The notes under the pieces are model-generated. The model was not told the origin of the DNA and did not search any database. It worked only from the letters and a program-made list of their open reading frames with translations. From a virus: a stretch of 61,011 nt of DNA. Numbering within the stretch: position 1 is the first letter of the stretch; every line of letters begins with the position of its first letter. Made by a program: the position numbers and the translations under genes. Location of the stretch: IMG/VR virus record IMGVR_UViG_3300007538_000027, positions 1-61,011 of that record. One strand, given 5' to 3'. This document shows positions 19,754-59,523 of the stretch, one piece after another.

Positions 19754-20461
19754 CTAACATCCTCCATAAATATTTATATTATGCTTATCTATAACTCGTT
19801 GTAAGCTACTTTGTGTCCACATCTTACCTTTGGGGTTATACACTTCCATATCATTCAGGAAGGCAACCACCTTAACCTGTGTTGGACGTTTACCTAGATA
19901 CTTGAGAGCCTTCTTAACTTCTGGTACCACATAAGATGTAGCCTCAATTGAAGATTGTCTACGTTTAGCTAACACCTCCTCAATATTCTTATCACCATTA
20001 CCAGAGTTCCTCCCGTAGTTAGGTGATGCTCTGCCACTACTAATGCCTTTAGCTTTAGCTGCAGCACAACCACGCTTAACACGGTCACGTATCATAAACC
20101 TTTCTTGTTCAGCCATAGCAGCATACAAATGCAATTGAAAGTTATCAGCATTAGGAATAGAAGCAACTTTAAATTTAACATTACTTTCCATGTACATAGC
20201 AATCTGTGATACCCTACGACTTAGTCGGTCTAATTTCTGGATCACCAATGTAGCCCCAGTACTCTTACAAGTTTCCATAGCTTTATCTAACTCAGGTTTA
20301 ATTTCTGCAGCACCAGATATAAACTCATGGAAGTCTCCTACAATTTCATAAGACTCTAGAGAATTTAAATAGTAATTGATATCTGCAAGTTGTGAGTCAA
20401 AACCATGTTGGTTCTTAGTTATATCCTCTTTACTCAAACGTCTATATAATACCACTTTCAT
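19754..20461 (-). CDS. Serine recombinase (resolvase/invertase family)
   Basis: 235 residues. The N-terminal catalytic domain shows VVLYRRLSKED with the nucleophile Ser near residue 10, GFDSQ, LDRLSRR (about 107-113) and AMAEQERFMIRDRVKRG (about 125-141), all standard for small serine recombinases. A C-terminal part with VKVVAFLNDMEVYNPKGKMW resembles the start of the DNA-binding recombinase domain, but the long domain of large integrases is absent. It could invert or resolve a phage segment, or be a relic of a mobile element. The RlmN-like gene follows at one base. Confidence 0.85.
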   Translation of the reverse strand: MKVVLYRRLSKEDITKNQHGFDSQLADINYYLNSLESYEIVGDFHEFISGAAEIKPELDKAMETCKSTGATLVIQKLDRLSRRVSQIAMYMESNVKFKVASIPNADNFQLHLYAAMAEQERFMIRDRVKRGCAAAKAKGISSGRASPNYGRNSGNGDKNIEEVLAKRRQSSIEATSYVVPEVKKALKYLGKRPTQVKVVAFLNDMEVYNPKGKMWTQSSLQRVIDKHNINIYGGC

Positions 20462-28590: not shown

Positions 28591-29952
28591 TTAGAAAGAA
28601 TTATCATTTATAAATGACGTACAATCCCCTCTGTAGTTACCTGACGAACAGAATACTTGAGGTACTGTTTTATAACCCTCATTTAACAACCACTCACGTT
28701 TATCAGGATGTAAGATTACATCAACCTTATTATATTTGAGTCCTCTTTCATCTAGGAACTCCGTGAGTTTTTCACAATAAGGGCAATCTGGCTTAGAATA
28801 TACAGTTAAAATATCCTGCAGAGTAATAACTACATCCTCTTTGAACTCACTAAATATATCGTCAGAAAAATCTACATTAGACACATCCTTACTTACGGCA
28901 CTAACCATATAGTTTGTAGGGTCTGCTTCCATAGCTGCGTTCTGCTGACTGTTCAAATCCATCCAATCATTCTCGAACCAAGGTAAAGGGCAGGTAGTGG
29001 TCTTTCTGAATTTAGCTTGAAGTCCTAAAACATCAAATACTTCTTGAGCATTGTAACGCACCCAATCATTCAATATACCTTCATTCATACCTACAAGATT
29101 ACGACCAGAAGAGAATAAATATTTATTCCATGACAACTCTTGGTCTACAACCCCATGTATAATTGCACTAAGGTCTTCTTTGCAGCTATCAAAATATTTT
29201 TCCCAATAATTATCTTGCATCATAATATCTTGCAGTACGTACCTACCAGCTTCGTAGTGGATCATCTCATCCATTAAGATTTTCTGTACTAGTCTAGCAG
29301 CACCTACAAAATACTCTTGTTGTGCTAATGCGAAAGTGCAACTAAAACTAGCCATGAAGCTTATACGTTCCAATGCATAAATGGCAACTACACCTTTCAA
29401 TACATAAGGTCTGCACTCTTCTTCAGTTGCTAGTCCAAGTGTGTATTTAGCTCCATATTCTTTTAGTTCAGATAAAGCCTTTCCCACTACTGTACTTCTT
29501 TCCAGAACCTTGTTGTTCTCAAATACCATGTCAAATACTTCTTGCGGGTCTGAGATACATTGCCTAACAATATTGGAATAAGTATTAGAGTGAAGGTTTT
29601 CATTCTCCCCTATACGAGCCAGTAAGTGCCCATACTCACTGTTAGTTACAAATGGTGCTAGTAGTGTAGGTATGGAAGTAGCTATACTATCAAGACTCCA
29701 CTGGTACGCCAGATTCAATAACATCAAATCTCTTGTATTTTTGTCACAAGTAACTAAGTCCATTCTTGTATCGGTAAGGTCTACATCATTTTCTGACCAA
29801 TCTAGCTGTTTAAGCTTTTCCATTAATTCATACAAGTATGGGTATGGTTGATTAACACTATCATATAAACTTGGTTCTTCCCCAAAAAACAAAGGGTAGT
29901 TGCCAGATTTGTGAGATGTAGACTTTTCATTAAAAACTGTAATATTTGTCAA
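28591..29952 (-). CDS. nrdB: Ribonucleotide reductase small subunit fused to glutaredoxin, TTG start
   Basis: 453 residues from a TTG, 7 bases behind GGAG. The R2 part (about 1-370) has the metal ligands Asp88, Glu118, His121, Glu195, Glu229 and His232 and the radical Tyr125 in the order of E. coli NrdB. An acidic segment (VDFSDDIFSEF, about 360-370) looks like the R2 tail that docks R1. Residues about 380-453 are a glutaredoxin domain: active site CPYC at 390-393 and the cis-Pro motif TVPQVF at 429-434. The fusion would bring a reductant directly to NrdA. NrdA is encoded just upstream. Confidence 0.95.
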   Translation of the reverse strand: MTNITVFNEKSTSHKSGNYPLFFGEEPSLYDSVNQPYPYLYELMEKLKQLDWSENDVDLTDTRMDLVTCDKNTRDLMLLNLAYQWSLDSIATSIPTLLAPFVTNSEYGHLLARIGENENLHSNTYSNIVRQCISDPQEVFDMVFENNKVLERSTVVGKALSELKEYGAKYTLGLATEEECRPYVLKGVVAIYALERISFMASFSCTFALAQQEYFVGAARLVQKILMDEMIHYEAGRYVLQDIMMQDNYWEKYFDSCKEDLSAIIHGVVDQELSWNKYLFSSGRNLVGMNEGILNDWVRYNAQEVFDVLGLQAKFRKTTTCPLPWFENDWMDLNSQQNAAMEADPTNYMVSAVSKDVSNVDFSDDIFSEFKEDVVITLQDILTVYSKPDCPYCEKLTEFLDERGLKYNKVDVILHPDKREWLLNEGYKTVPQVFCSSGNYRGDCTSFINDNSF

Positions 29953-29996: not shown

Positions 29997-30979
29997 TTAC
30001 AAGGTACAACCACCCCCACCACATCCTACATCTTGCACTTCCTCTATTTTCTTAGAGTTGCCAGAGTTTGTTTTACTGTTAACGTAGTATCTAGTCTTCA
30101 TTCCCATAGTTATCATATACATCCAATTCTGCAATAGCATGTCTCCCGTGATAACTCCTTTGGTAAAATCTAAGTACTCATCGGCAGAAATAGTTTGGTC
30201 TGTAAAGCATTGAAAACATGCATACACATCAATCATATCTTTAGTTGGAATGTCATAAGCTAACTCATAGTACTCTGCATGTGTGTCTGCATTTGGGGCT
30301 AAGAACCGTGTTTTCTTCTTCCCATTAGTCTTAACCACCTTAATACTTCTAGCAGGTAAGATGCTGTTAGTGCCATTGGTTGCAATCGAGCTACTTTCGT
30401 TGGGCATAAAATTAGTGGTGACACTAAAGCGCACACCGTATTCCATAACTTCTTTTCGTAACCCTTCCCAGTCTTTGGTCAACCTTTGTTTTACTACTTT
30501 GAACACATTCTTGTTCATTGTATCTACAGGTAACCAACCTTCTCTCCACTTTGTCTTATGTACCCATTCACATTGTCCACGTTCTTTAGCTAGACGTACA
30601 GAAGCTTTAATCATAGAGTATGAATGTAACTCTGCCAAGCGGTGGATAAATTGTTTACCCTCAAGGGAAGAGTATTTAAGTTTCTTCTCTGCCATCAAAC
30701 CAGCCAAATCTGTAATACCTACACCGATATTTCGTCTAGCTTGTGCTGTATATTTCAATGAAGGGAAAGGATAGTCCATAATTTCCATGACATTATCAAT
30801 GCTTAGTGCTGCGTAATAAGCTACATCTTCCCACTCATCCTCTTTTACCCTACGTGCCACAATAGCGGATAAACTACATAATCCAATCTCTGGTATACTG
30901 CCATCTTTATTTACAGGCTGTTCTTCATTTAACTGGTATACATTATCAAACCCTACAGTAGGGAATGCTGTTTCCTGAC
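29997..30979 (-). CDS. nrdA: Ribonucleotide reductase large subunit, exon 2
   Basis: Continues NrdA after the intron: the exon begins with GT, completing the cysteine codon begun in exon 1, then reads QETAFPTVGF and GSIPEIGLCSL, matching the region after the active-site cysteine of class Ia enzymes. It ends VGCGGGGCTL, the flexible C-terminal Cys pair that passes electrons into the active site from thioredoxin or glutaredoxin. With exon 1 the protein is 752 residues, near E. coli NrdA (761). Confidence 0.92.
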
Positions 30980-31226
30980 CATTTTATCTTAATTTTCATT
31001 AAGGGTGGATCATATCATCTTCCGTTCTGGAAGTCGGACGCTTTTTCATTTAGTGACTAAACTAAACTACTTCCTGTTATTAAGCTTATTCGCATAAGCT
31101 CAGGTGATCTCTGAACCTTCCTACTCTGTAGGCTTGGCTGCTGATTGCCATCATCATTACATGTTAAGGTTTCCAGCAATTCATCCAATTTTCAACTTAC
31201 GTTCCCATAAGAGGCTGCATCAGTTT
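30980..31226 (-). ncRNA. Group I intron in nrdA, no internal ORF
   Basis: 247 bases between nrdA exons that break the reading frame. On the minus strand it shows the group I core: a P-like GAATTGCTGGAAAC, a Q-like AATCAGCAGCCAAGCC, an R-like GGTTCAGAGATCACC and an S-like GATGATATGATCC able to pair with R (GATCA/TGATC), plus an AGCTTAT/ATAAGCT hairpin. The 5' exon ends in T and the intron ends in G, as self-splicing requires; CTGT of the exon can pair with GCAG near the intron start. Removing it restores NLCQET. No homing endonuclease is inside. Confidence 0.88.
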
Positions 31227-32502
31227 ACAGGTTAGAACTATAAATCTTATCTTTGTGTGGAGTATGGCGGTTTAATTCATCTGTTCTATGCAGATAAACC
31301 TGACCAGACTCTTGTCCTTGTACTAAGGCTTCAATTGCCAGCTTACGTGCATTAATATACTTACGTGGTTTAATTGACTTCTCATACTCTTCATATAGGT
31401 TATCAAAATTAGTCTGGTCTCCTTCGTACATAGCTTCGTATAATTCAGGTGAGTCCGCATAACTAACTAACATCCAATCTCTATTCTGATACACTTTCTT
31501 AGCGAATAGTCTATTGCTACCAAAAGAGTAATGAATACCATCGACCCTTACTTTAGTTGCAGTCTTCTTGCTCTTCCAAGTAAGAATATCCATTACCTCT
31601 GGGTCAAGACAGTTAAGATGCATAGTGGCACTACCACCGCGGGAATTCTGTAGATTAGCTGCCACAGCACTCTCAGTCATCTTGTAGTAAGGTCTCTTTC
31701 CCTGATGTATTGTAGTACCACCACGAACACCATCTCCCTTACTGCGTGTCTTTAAGTGAGAACCAATACCAGCACTTGCGCAGGTTAACATATATGCTAT
31801 GTGGTCTCCCGCAGCCAATGAGTCAGCCGTATCATGTGTGGTGAACGTAGCACAACTGGCGAATGATCGGCTCGGTGTGCGAAGATTAGTCATAAATGGA
31901 GTTGGTGCACAAATCTTCTTATCGCTTAAGTAGTGGTAATACTTAATAACATCCGTCATTCGTCTATCTAATGGCATATTCTTCATGTTAGCCATTGCCA
32001 TCCCCATATACATAAACTGAGGGGACTCTAAGGCAATATTCTTAATACGATTACGCAAAACGTACTTATCACTAATTTGTTTTATTTCTGGGTAAGAAGA
32101 CTTCAAGTCTTTAGAATGATCTATTACTTCTTGTAGTTTCTCAAAATCTTCTTCGCTATAAGGTAACTTCTCCCAATAGCCTTGACCTTCCATATTATCA
32201 TGATGTTGTTTTAGTGTAGGAATCTTTTTGAAACCACCGAAAGCTTCTTTGTATAAATTACCTGCAAGCACTCTACCAGCTAACATGAAATGTTTTTCAT
32301 CGAACTCTTCCACACAAGCATCAATAATAGCTTTATCTATATCTCTGGTAGTACATTTATCGCTTAATAACTTCAATGCTTTAAAAGATATATCAGACCA
32401 ATTCACTTTACGGGCTGCTGCCCATCTCATCTTCTTATTAAATTTCTCTGCGTCAAAGGGAACACTAGTTCCATCACTTTTAATTACAGTGGTAATACTC
32501 AA
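31227..32502 (-). CDS. nrdA: Ribonucleotide reductase large subunit, exon 1
   Basis: 425 codons plus one base from a TTG, 7 bases behind GGAG. It starts with an ATP-cone-like N-terminus (VIKSDGTSVPFDAEKFNKKM) and has the SFASCATFTT region with the first active-site Cys and the GSATMHLNCLDPEV segment. It ends ...KIYSSNL plus the first T of the cysteine codon that, in E. coli, encodes thiyl-radical Cys439. It reduces ribonucleotides to deoxyribonucleotides with NrdB. Translation of unspliced RNA would stop immediately at TAA. Confidence 0.93.
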
Positions 32503-38325: not shown

Positions 38326-38901
38326 TTACACTGTTAATAATTTCCTGTACGCTATCCTACGAAGATCAGTATTACTTAACTCTTTAGGAGGGAACCCTGC
38401 CTTCTTTAGTTCAGCTTTCTGTTTGGCTACTGGTTGTTTTAATTTAGCAATCACAGCCTTCTCTGCTTTAGCTTCCCCAAGAGATACCCCGTAACGTTGA
38501 GAGTATGTTAGTTGTGCGTGGCACTCTATACATAAGCATTCAAGTTCGGCGGCACTCACACCAAGAATACTTTTTGCGAATGGTACTACATCATCAAAAC
38601 TTAATAGTGGATTCTCTCCCTTTTTATGGTTGATTTCAATGTCAGATAATTTCTTAGGTAACCTACACATCTCGCAGTCAACAAGCCATTTAGTACGTGT
38701 ATTAGGATTAATGTCAGGGTATGTGTGTTCATAGAGGTATGCAAGCTTGACTGGGTGCTTCATCCAACTTAGACGCACAGCAGACCTAATCTGAGTACAT
38801 AACTTCTTCTCACTCAACCTACCATCTTCATCCAGTACTTTTAGAAACCCTTCTAACTTCTTCTTTCGTTTTAATATCTCAGCCTTAGTAGCAACAACCA
38901 T
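38326..38901 (-). CDS. HNH endonuclease-like protein
   Basis: 191 residues. CEMCRLPKKLSDIEINHKKGENPL followed by LECLCIECHAQLTYSQRYG is an HNH/zinc-ribbon arrangement (CxxC, then H, then CxxC and the second catalytic region). Free-standing HNH genes in phages are often homing endonucleases; the intron in nrdA is 7 kb away. The start overlaps nothing but follows the preceding stop directly. Confidence 0.75.
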   Translation of the reverse strand: MVVATKAEILKRKKKLEGFLKVLDEDGRLSEKKLCTQIRSAVRLSWMKHPVKLAYLYEHTYPDINPNTRTKWLVDCEMCRLPKKLSDIEINHKKGENPLLSFDDVVPFAKSILGVSAAELECLCIECHAQLTYSQRYGVSLGEAKAEKAVIAKLKQPVAKQKAELKKAGFPPKELSNTDLRRIAYRKLLTV

Positions 38902-51847: not shown

Positions 51848-52741
51848 GTGAGTGAAATAGGTTGTAATGTACCAAAGAGTAAGTTAATTCCATCTGGTTC
51901 TAGGTCTATTAATAGTTCTGGAAACTACCTAACAGTGTTAGAACGGGCTGATGCCACTAAGTCCTTATATCGGGTTTTATTGGATTCTGGGATTACTCAA
52001 ATTATGGGTTCGAAAGAGATACGTAATGGTAAATGGAAAGATAATATGTCTCCAACTTTATATGGCATAGGTTTTATAGGTGACGGAGTGCATATGTCTA
52101 AAGTAGGTGGAACCAATACTTCAACTTATGATGTATGGAGAGGTATTATGAGGAGATGCTACGATGTCAACCTCAAAAGCCACTATCCTACCTACGGTGG
52201 TGCAGGTATCACTGTTGCAGAAGATTGGCATAACTTCCAAAACTTTGCCGAATGGTATCAGGTAGAATGTCTTAAATTACCAGATATAAAATTAAATATT
52301 GACAAAGACTTAAAGGGTGGTAAAATCTACTCACCTGACAATTGTGTGTTGTTGCCATACAAGTTGAACAATTTTATCACTAATAGTAAAACTGATGGAG
52401 GTTTGGTTGGTTACACTAAGCCACGTAGTACTAAATACACAATCACACTATCAATATTAGGAAAGCAACATTATATTGGTGAGTTTCCTAATCAAGAGGA
52501 AGGTGATTATATCTATCGTGTACTACGTGAATGGACTTACACCAGACTTGGGTATATGTACCATGCACGTGGCATGATTTCAGATGAGGTGTTAAATTTA
52601 TTATCAAATCAATATAGTAATTACGATGATAATCAGATACAGTGTGTAGTTGAAGGTTATAGTAGTTTTATAGAAAAGGTAAATTTATTCCTTAGTAATG
52701 AGGATGTACTTACATGTCGGGTTAAGAAGTTACCAAAATAG
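51848..52741 (+). CDS. HNH-type endonuclease-like protein, GTG start
   Basis: 297 residues from a GTG behind AGGAG. The core VWRGIMRRCYD...YPTYGGAGITVAEDWHNFQNFAEWY...LNIDKDLKGGKIYSPDNCVLLP (about 97-178) is a common phage module linked to HNH/AP2-type homing endonucleases. The rest is helical. It may be a free-standing homing gene; none of its neighbours is visibly interrupted. Confidence 0.7.
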   Translation: MSEIGCNVPKSKLIPSGSRSINSSGNYLTVLERADATKSLYRVLLDSGITQIMGSKEIRNGKWKDNMSPTLYGIGFIGDGVHMSKVGGTNTSTYDVWRGIMRRCYDVNLKSHYPTYGGAGITVAEDWHNFQNFAEWYQVECLKLPDIKLNIDKDLKGGKIYSPDNCVLLPYKLNNFITNSKTDGGLVGYTKPRSTKYTITLSILGKQHYIGEFPNQEEGDYIYRVLREWTYTRLGYMYHARGMISDEVLNLLSNQYSNYDDNQIQCVVEGYSSFIEKVNLFLSNEDVLTCRVKKLPK

Positions 52742-55990: not shown

Positions 55991-56698
55991 GTGGATAAAA
56001 AATATAGATATTATGATGATATTATTCTCAAAGAATTGTATAAAGAATTAAAACCTGTTCCTGAGATGTACACTAAAAATTATGAGGGTGAAGTGGTCTG
56101 TATGGACTTCCTCACGTTTAAAATGGTATTGAATTTGAAACCAAACAAAACAATAAAGGGATGTTCCAATGAACTGTGGAAAGTTTGTGAGGATTTAGGT
56201 TATAAACTTAATACCACCGTAACTACATCAATACATAATAAGTGGATTTGGTTTAATATCCTAGGTGAATTTAGGGGTTACCATGAAGATAATCAACTAG
56301 CTCTTGAACTACAGAGACAAGATTTGGCTAAAGAAAATCAGAAACTACTTGATGAAACAATTTTGAATGGGACCTATGGTATTAATAATCCAAAAGAAGG
56401 TGGTGGTGTATACCTATTAAGTTGTGGTGAGTATTTTAAGATAGGTCACAGTGTAAACATAAAATCAAGATTATCTTCTATAAAGACCAGTAACCCCTAT
56501 GAAGTAGAGTTGATTACAAAGTACACCCCATATAAAGTTAATAATAAATTATTAGAGCGGCAATTACATAAACATTTTAAGAATTTCCACCATATGAATG
56601 AGTGGTTTCATAAGGGGTTTACAGAAGATGAATTTATTACAGCTTGTATAAAATTTTACACTAGAACTGTAAAGAAACTTGCACAAGTAGGTGAATAA
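55991..56698 (+). CDS. T5orf172/MUG113-type GIY-YIG nuclease-like protein, GTG start
   Basis: 235 residues from a GTG behind GAGGAG. The C-terminal domain GVYLLSCGEYFKIGHSVNIKSRLSSIKTSNPYEVELI...LERQLHKHFKNFHHMNEWF (about 138-215) is the T5orf172 form of the GIY-YIG fold, with the Tyr/Gly pair, KIG and R landmarks and a catalytic-type Glu in LERQLH. Function in phages is unknown; some relatives are fused to regulators. Confidence 0.8.
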   Translation: MDKKYRYYDDIILKELYKELKPVPEMYTKNYEGEVVCMDFLTFKMVLNLKPNKTIKGCSNELWKVCEDLGYKLNTTVTTSIHNKWIWFNILGEFRGYHEDNQLALELQRQDLAKENQKLLDETILNGTYGINNPKEGGGVYLLSCGEYFKIGHSVNIKSRLSSIKTSNPYEVELITKYTPYKVNNKLLERQLHKHFKNFHHMNEWFHKGFTEDEFITACIKFYTRTVKKLAQVGE

Positions 56699-59372: not shown

Positions 59373-59446
59373 GTTCCGTTAGCTCAGATGGATAGAGCAA
59401 CAGCCTTCTAAGCTGTGGGTCGAAAGTTCAAATCTTTCACGGGATA
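59373..59446 (+). tRNA. tRNA-Arg, anticodon TCT
   Basis: Cloverleaf with acceptor GTTCCGT/ACGGGAT (two G-U pairs), D arm GCTC/GAGC, anticodon stem ACAGC/GCTGT with loop CTTCTAA, and T arm GAAAG/CTTTC with TTCAAAT. Anticodon TCT reads AGA/AGG. The discriminator A is followed by CGCA, so CCA is not fully encoded. Confidence 0.9.
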
Positions 59447-59447
59447 C

Positions 59448-59523
59448 GCAGTATTAACTCAGTTGGTAGAGTGTCTGATTTCCAATCAGAATGTCGAGAG
59501 TTCGAACCTCTCATACTGCTCCA
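59448..59523 (+). tRNA. tRNA-Gly, anticodon TCC
   Basis: Acceptor GCAGTAT/ATACTGC, perfect 7 bp, D arm ACTC/GAGT, anticodon stem TCTGA/TCAGA with loop TTTCCAA, T arm GAGAG/CTCTC with TTCGAAC, encoded CCA end. Anticodon TCC reads GGA/GGG. Only one base (59447) separates it from tRNA-Arg, so both are likely cut from one precursor. Confidence 0.93.

Follow-up and report, generated by a model that had tools for sequence, protein, structure and literature searches.

An ORF-less group I intron at the catalytic cysteine codon of a phage nrdA gene, a codon recurrently occupied by unlike splicing elements

We analysed 61,011 nucleotides of viral DNA (IMG/VR record IMGVR_UViG_3300007538_000027, positions 1 to 61,011; hereafter the window), from a virus of bacteria related to Shewanella phage 1/4. 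On the minus strand the nrdA gene is interrupted within a single codon by an insert of 247 nt, which reading-frame analysis places at positions 31226 down to 30980. Exon 1 (31227..32502, minus strand, 1276 bases, TTG start as listed) ends in AAC CTG T and covers the ATP-cone, the all-alpha domain and the first part of the barrel domain (Pfam PF03477, PF00317 and PF02867). Exon 2 (29997..30979, minus strand, 983 bases, PF02867) starts with GT CAG GAA, that is, bases 2-3 of a cysteine codon followed by Gln and Glu. Approximately 45 bp after nrdA lies nrdB, fused to a C-terminal glutaredoxin (28591..29952, minus strand; Pfam), and the gap between the two genes holds no endonuclease gene in the window. 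The Shewanella 1/4 record calls its own nrdB 'RnR beta subunit+NrdH'. In a contig from another IMG/VR sample, both exon proteins and the intron are identical to those of the window. Elsewhere the window carries a free-standing HNH ORF assigned to PHROG 953 (51848..52741, plus strand, E 1.1e-46), two free-standing endonuclease-like genes, one of the HNH type (PHROG 1985; 38326-38901, minus strand) and one of the T5orf172 type (55991-56698, plus strand), a gene of the serine recombinase / DNA invertase family (19754-20461, PHROG 125), and adjacent genes for tRNA-Arg(tct) and tRNA-Gly(tcc) (59373-59523).

Joining the 1276 and 983 exon bases in frame gives one NrdA of 752 amino acids with no internal stops. 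Compared with PDB sequences, the spliced peptide places the cysteine of the joined TGT codon, in the motif SNLC..E, opposite residue 439 of E. coli R1; Cys439 of E. coli NrdA is the thiyl-radical residue. The unspliced frame reads ...SSNL and then meets TAA immediately after Leu425, the stop codon lying across the 5’ splice site (31225..31227, minus strand). Because T and GT are not contiguous without splicing, the cysteine is absent from the 425-residue first part and from any product of the exon 2 frame. The insert has stops in all three frames, and its translation in these frames revealed no endonuclease ORF, so that the intron-encoded endonuclease of a mobile intron is absent. We also considered an intein, and rejected it because of the immediate TAA and the further in-frame stops. 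An earlier note on this DNA had described an ORF-less insertion of 247 bases at 30980-31226 that splits the catalytic codon as T|GT and leaves an immediate TAA if unspliced; the reading frame bears this out to the base, with the exon T at 31227 and GTCAGG from 30979.

The borders of the insert (30980..31226, minus strand) follow from the reading frame together with P1, P10 and the G at its end. RF00028, the Rfam model for group I introns, matches positions 30987-31238 on the minus strand with 66.1 bits (gathering threshold 50) over model positions 1-253, with an E value of 1.4e-14 over the whole window, and is the sole group I match there. Besides group I and the two tRNAs, neither a group II intron nor another Rfam RNA family reached gathering level in the window. 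The group I assignment made in the earlier note therefore agrees with the covariance model.

We drew a secondary structure comprising P2-P9, including the P3/P7 pseudoknot, and then counted its pairs on an alignment of 11 related introns. The alignment left out L004 (a near copy of L003), L010, L011, L130, L012 and L013, the introns L016, L044 and L064, which are inserted two bases further downstream (TGT|), and the first terL intron of L006; four rows from terL or polymerase genes had approximate borders taken from Rfam matches. Over 61 base pairs, 90.5% of 590 cells are paired, a count that leans toward the window intron since the structure was drawn on its sequence, and 36 of the 61 pairs show a change on both sides. 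None of 500 shuffles reached the observed pairing and double changes, and controls in which the partners were slid by 1-3 columns gave 28-40% pairing and 7-16 double-sided changes.

The internal guide GCAG (31215..31218, minus strand, as are all elements that follow) pairs with the exon sequence CUGU to form P1, with a U-G pair at the splice site. P1 is short, at 4 bp, a length found in 14/14 rows of same-codon introns. The adjoining CUGAU (31219..31223) pairs with GUCAG of exon 2 to form a P10 of 5 bp. In the hairpin that we name P2 (31196..31211) all six pairs changed on both sides. The 5’ strand of P3 (31182..31188) pairs with 31034-31040 in seven pairs, paired in 100% of cells and four of them double-changed, and the 5’ strand of P7, GAUCA (31105..31109), pairs with UGAUC at 31008-31012, forming the pseudoknot with P3. 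The five P7 pairs are paired in 100% of cells in the 11 introns, two with a change on both sides: GAUCA/UGAUC occurs in the window and Shewanella 1/4 and GACUA/UAGUC in the other 9 of 11 rows, two pairs having changed together. To the P, Q, R and S core elements claimed in the earlier note we add one refinement, that the S/R pairing (P7) is a compensated variant and not the usual one. The P8 hairpin (31019..31033) is paired in 100% of cells; support is moderate for the P9 hairpin (30988..31003; 71%) and weak for P5 and outer P6a (59-60%). The terminal (omega) G is position 30980, and a G ends all 14 same-codon intron rows. In minimum folding energy the window intron beats its shuffles by a moderate margin only (z -2.24), so it is the covariance model and the covariation, and not the energy, that carry the group I case. 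As criteria for a group I intron, the core model, P3/P7 covariation, the P1 U-G with the terminal G, and the restored frame are all found in the window.

From the borders, fold, covariation, intact exons and recurrence computed here, we infer that the insert is almost certainly a group I intron, and that its removal by splicing makes the catalytic cysteine codon. The comparison with Shewanella phage 1/4 bears on the alternatives. The exon proteins of the two phages are 85-86% identical with third codon positions at only ~52%, which indicates selection on the gene to either side of the insert. Their introns differ by 22 substitutions and one indel; 12 of the substitutions form six double compensations, one keeps its pair, two break one pair and seven are unpaired.

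The insert could instead remain unspliced and NrdA function in two pieces, like that of Aeromonas phage Aeh1, which is described in two papers (PMC2988022, PMC3653736); the records of relatives do annotate two separate nrdA CDS. We consider this extremely improbable, since T and GT lie 247 bases apart unless spliced, the first fragment stops before the cysteine and the frame of exon 2 is closed by a stop a short way upstream, within the intron, so that both pieces are without Cys439, and since the insert shows strong RNA covariation. That the insert is a decayed, non-splicing group I intron in a dying gene would fit the lack of an endonuclease ORF and the one pair broken relative to Shewanella 1/4, but the compensatory changes are recent, having arisen between the two Shewanella-type introns, and purifying selection acts on both exons; we regard decay as very unlikely.

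For splicing, we propose the following mechanism. Ribosomes on the pre-mRNA would be halted by the TAA that straddles the 5’ splice site; the RNA would fold into P3-P9, and guanosine would attack after CUGU, positioned by the GCAG guide; the exon U would then be joined to the GU of exon 2 past the terminal G, giving the UGU codon for the catalytic cysteine. Active ribonucleotide reductase would be made from the spliced mRNA only, and the stop codon may shield the fold from ribosomes. An in-frame TAA or TGA lies exactly at the 5’ splice site in all 14 rows of same-codon introns, which comprise two intron sorts, and this extends the earlier note’s observation of the TAA in the window. Such a stop is as would be expected if ribosomes must halt before the 5’ splice site, and a review notes that in-frame stops are regarded as a means whereby ribosome stalling may aid intron folding and splicing (PMC3984707). 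In other phages RT-PCR has proved splicing, for group I introns in terL and the DNA polymerase gene of Shewanella phage KASIA (PMC8541194) and for an nrdA intron of Pectobacterium phage CB7 (PMC7344957). The intron would persist because it sits in a codon that the phage can neither lose nor change, and it would spread by recombination, perhaps initiated by an endonuclease encoded elsewhere.

Introns at the same T|GT position are present in Shewanella 1/4, Vibrio phages (three records examined, out of 20 Vibrio rows with full cover among the matches listed), Pseudoalteromonas J2-1, the IMG contig L035, Aeromonas PAc and phiA047, the contig L123, where NrdA is only 31% identical, and the MAG contig L131. 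With L130 and L131 left out of the Rfam scoring, RF00028 scores above cut-off at the nrdA site of the window, Shewanella 1/4, Vibrio, J2-1, L035 and L123; the Aeromonas introns at this site fall below gathering, that of phiA047 at 40.8 bits and that of PAc with no match at E<=0.001. The phages themselves are intron-rich: counted over the records, group I matches at E<=0.001, not all of them above cut-off, number six in Shewanella 1/4, five in PH357 and six in J2-1. The second sort of intron, TGT|, occurs in L016, L044 and L064, with the guide GCAC for GUGU, and in L130, with GCAG for the CUGU of CTC TGT.

Among the closest known relatives are the introns of Vibrio phages 184E37.3a and 355E48.1 (MW824372, MW824376) and of Shewanella 1/4 (NC_025436), which share the codon and the T|GT phase, are ORF-less and 247-248 nt long, and are 78-91% identical to the window intron over the part aligned by blastn. 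An Intron_gpI feature is already annotated in both Vibrio records; the Shewanella 1/4 record splits nrdA into two CDS and marks no intron. The Vibrio carriers also differ from the window and Shewanella 1/4 in having an HNH-family gene between nrdA and nrdB. Similar cores are found in other genes, in the terL intron of Vibrio phage 1.193.O and in introns beside the DNA polymerase genes of Vibrio phage 424E50-1 and Pseudoalteromonas phage PH357, all with approximate borders. The terL and polymerase cores, which come from other marine phages, share 80-89% identity with the window intron, more than the 78% of the Vibrio nrdA intron, and a Cellulophaga phage (Crassvirales) has an intron in its polymerase gene that is 88.6% identical over 114 nt; these introns therefore change gene and host. 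Two neighbouring terL introns of the Vibrio phage L006 (3001-3099 and 3499-3656) are the closest to the 5’ and 3’ parts of the window intron, respectively (85% and 89%), hinting at exchange between introns.

Splicing elements are known in ribonucleotide reductase genes of other phages. The class Ia nrdA of CB7 has a LAGLIDADG intein exactly at SNL|C, and its group I intron, which has been shown to splice (PMC7344957), differs from the window intron in carrying an HNH gene and in its site, which is away from the cysteine, around residue 280 in the numbering of the window. The genes bnrdE of SPbeta and nrdE of Twort have group I introns in the large-subunit gene, but these genes are class Ib and the introns are located elsewhere; bnrdE of SPbeta has an intein at SNL|C, and SNLC is uninterrupted in Twort. 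The intein site is therefore known from isolates, SPbeta and CB7. The Aquifex intein, by contrast, lies in R2 and not in NrdA (PMC8772380).

To describe the use of the cysteine codon we surveyed 232 NrdA loci, of which 184 are empty at the codon and 45 are interrupted there; three (L101, L168 and L204) fell short of the codon and were dropped. The empty loci were assigned by program and the 45 interrupted ones labelled by hand from translations and junctions. Clustering on the final 120 exon 1 residues, with a threshold of 85% identity, gave 81 lineages. Of these, 24 had a splicing element at the codon, a proportion that is no estimate of natural frequency because the survey is biased to relatives of carriers, queries A1 and A2 coming largely from intron carriers and the loci being the best 80 of 480, 125 and 225 relatives. 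By lineage there are seven with T|GT introns, four with TGT| introns and 14 with inteins before the codon, one lineage being counted twice; the intein lineages comprise nine with LAGLIDADG inteins, two with mini-inteins and three with split inteins that have an ORF between the halves. The introns and inteins lie within three bases of each other. In six intein-bearing proteins searched with Pfam, the intein splicing domain was detected in all six, each time below cut-off, and LAGLIDADG_3 was above cut-off in all five contiguous ones; the remaining inteins were recognised visually, by how they end and by their frame. A search of genome contigs gave two nrdA loci, both interrupted, which is too few for a rate.

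In L079, L080, L232 and L234 nrdA is split at the cysteine codon into an N-intein with a stop, an ORF, and a C-intein ending in VHN|C, the ORF appearing HNH-like by eye in L232 and L234; the layout resembles the fractured-gene arrangement. Large insertions in nrdA away from the codon occur at four positions, in one lineage each. L038 (its first insert) and L040 have large in-frame intein-like inserts ~140 residues before the cysteine, and L044 has an 888-nt insert 84 residues before it.

Intron and intein also meet within one lineage, in which J2-1 and L035 have the intron and L022 an intein, the exons of J2-1 and L022 being 76-79% identical in nucleotides. The literature that we searched, through listings, openings of abstracts and passages, yielded no account of a group I intron at this nrdA codon, nor of an intron and an intein sharing the codon. 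The co-location of these elements is observed. We tentatively suggest, with less than even confidence, that the Cys439 codon is a shared landing pad, on which endonuclease families may have converged, intron and intein may exclude or replace each other, and ORF-less introns may be moved by HNH enzymes; convergence, replacement and movement in trans are conjectural parts of this reading.

How the window intron might move bears on the last of these points. The earlier note proposed looking for a homing nuclease in relatives, and the answer is a partial one: no ORF fills the introns at the same site, but some carriers have HNH genes in the gap from nrdA to nrdB. PHROGs profiles identified HNH-type ORFs there in Vibrio (two different ones), J2-1 and Aeromonas PAc, and one was assigned by eye in L044. 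We therefore considered, as somewhat less likely than not, that a free-standing HNH endonuclease cutting the intronless site CTGTGTCAGGA moves the intron in trans (collaborative homing), for which two papers provide precedent (PMC3984707, PMC10448857), rather than the intron being an immobile remnant inherited with the gene; homing is not exclusive of splicing as explained above. HNH-type ORFs between nrdA and nrdB occur in 4 of 10 intron lineages, compared with an ORF of any kind of at least 140 residues in 7 of 57 empty lineages, but the one-sided p is only 0.051 and the ORFs of empty lineages were counted by length, not profiled. The program had given 5 of 10; the ‘ORF’ of L131 is nrdA exon 2 itself, and L131 was counted as without an ORF. 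L123 and L011, where the contig or record ends, were left out.

In Vibrio and Aeromonas, PHROG 953 members occupy the nrdA-nrdB gap; the window has its member at another place, an ORF 29-33% identical to the nrdA-nrdB ORFs of these relatives, making it a possible candidate for a trans-acting partner of the intron. Movement would also fit the 91% identity of the intron to that of Shewanella 1/4 while exon third positions are at ~52%, although structural constraint can explain a high intron identity too, and it would fit the occurrence of the same intron type in the distant NrdA of L123. Against it, the window, Shewanella 1/4, L016, L035 and L064 have an intron but no adjacent gene, L009 and L035 both carry the intron in nrdA genes 94.5% identical with an HNH gene in only one, and empty Aeromonas relatives carry another ORF between nrdA and nrdB. 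The introns of collaborative homing systems in T3/T7-like phages, cyanophage psbA and ICP1 terL are likewise ORF-less (PMC10448857) and have a free-standing endonuclease nearby, as do some nrdA intron carriers; here the association is read from genes and is weak.

The flanks of the insertion site allow more than one interpretation. Among 89 distinct empty alleles, 5 contain the exact target CTGT|GTCAG, as do 8 of the 10 T|GT intron rows, a distribution that fits either constraint by P1/P10 or transfer together with flanks. L010 and L018 are 95-97% identical over 1.5 kb upstream, 88% just downstream and 97% in another downstream bin, and between the window and Shewanella 1/4 identity rises at most briefly in exon 2 (88, 82%) and does not rise in exon 1 (77, 70%); we claim no co-conversion tract around the insertion site from these two comparisons.

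The window intron is a further case of a known kind, with close annotated relatives, and is ordinary for tailed phages. What it adds is that one catalytic codon is recurrently used by unlike splicing elements: in related phages the site carries parasites that splice at the RNA level and at the protein level, beside many empty alleles. For annotation there is a warning, in that an intron-bearing nrdA is recorded as two CDS and appears broken. At this codon one could ask, in a natural setting, what decides where such elements settle, homing enzymes or persistence in a codon that cannot be lost, and whether intron and intein compete for one target. If the landing-pad reading is true, different endonuclease families would have converged on one short, essential target.
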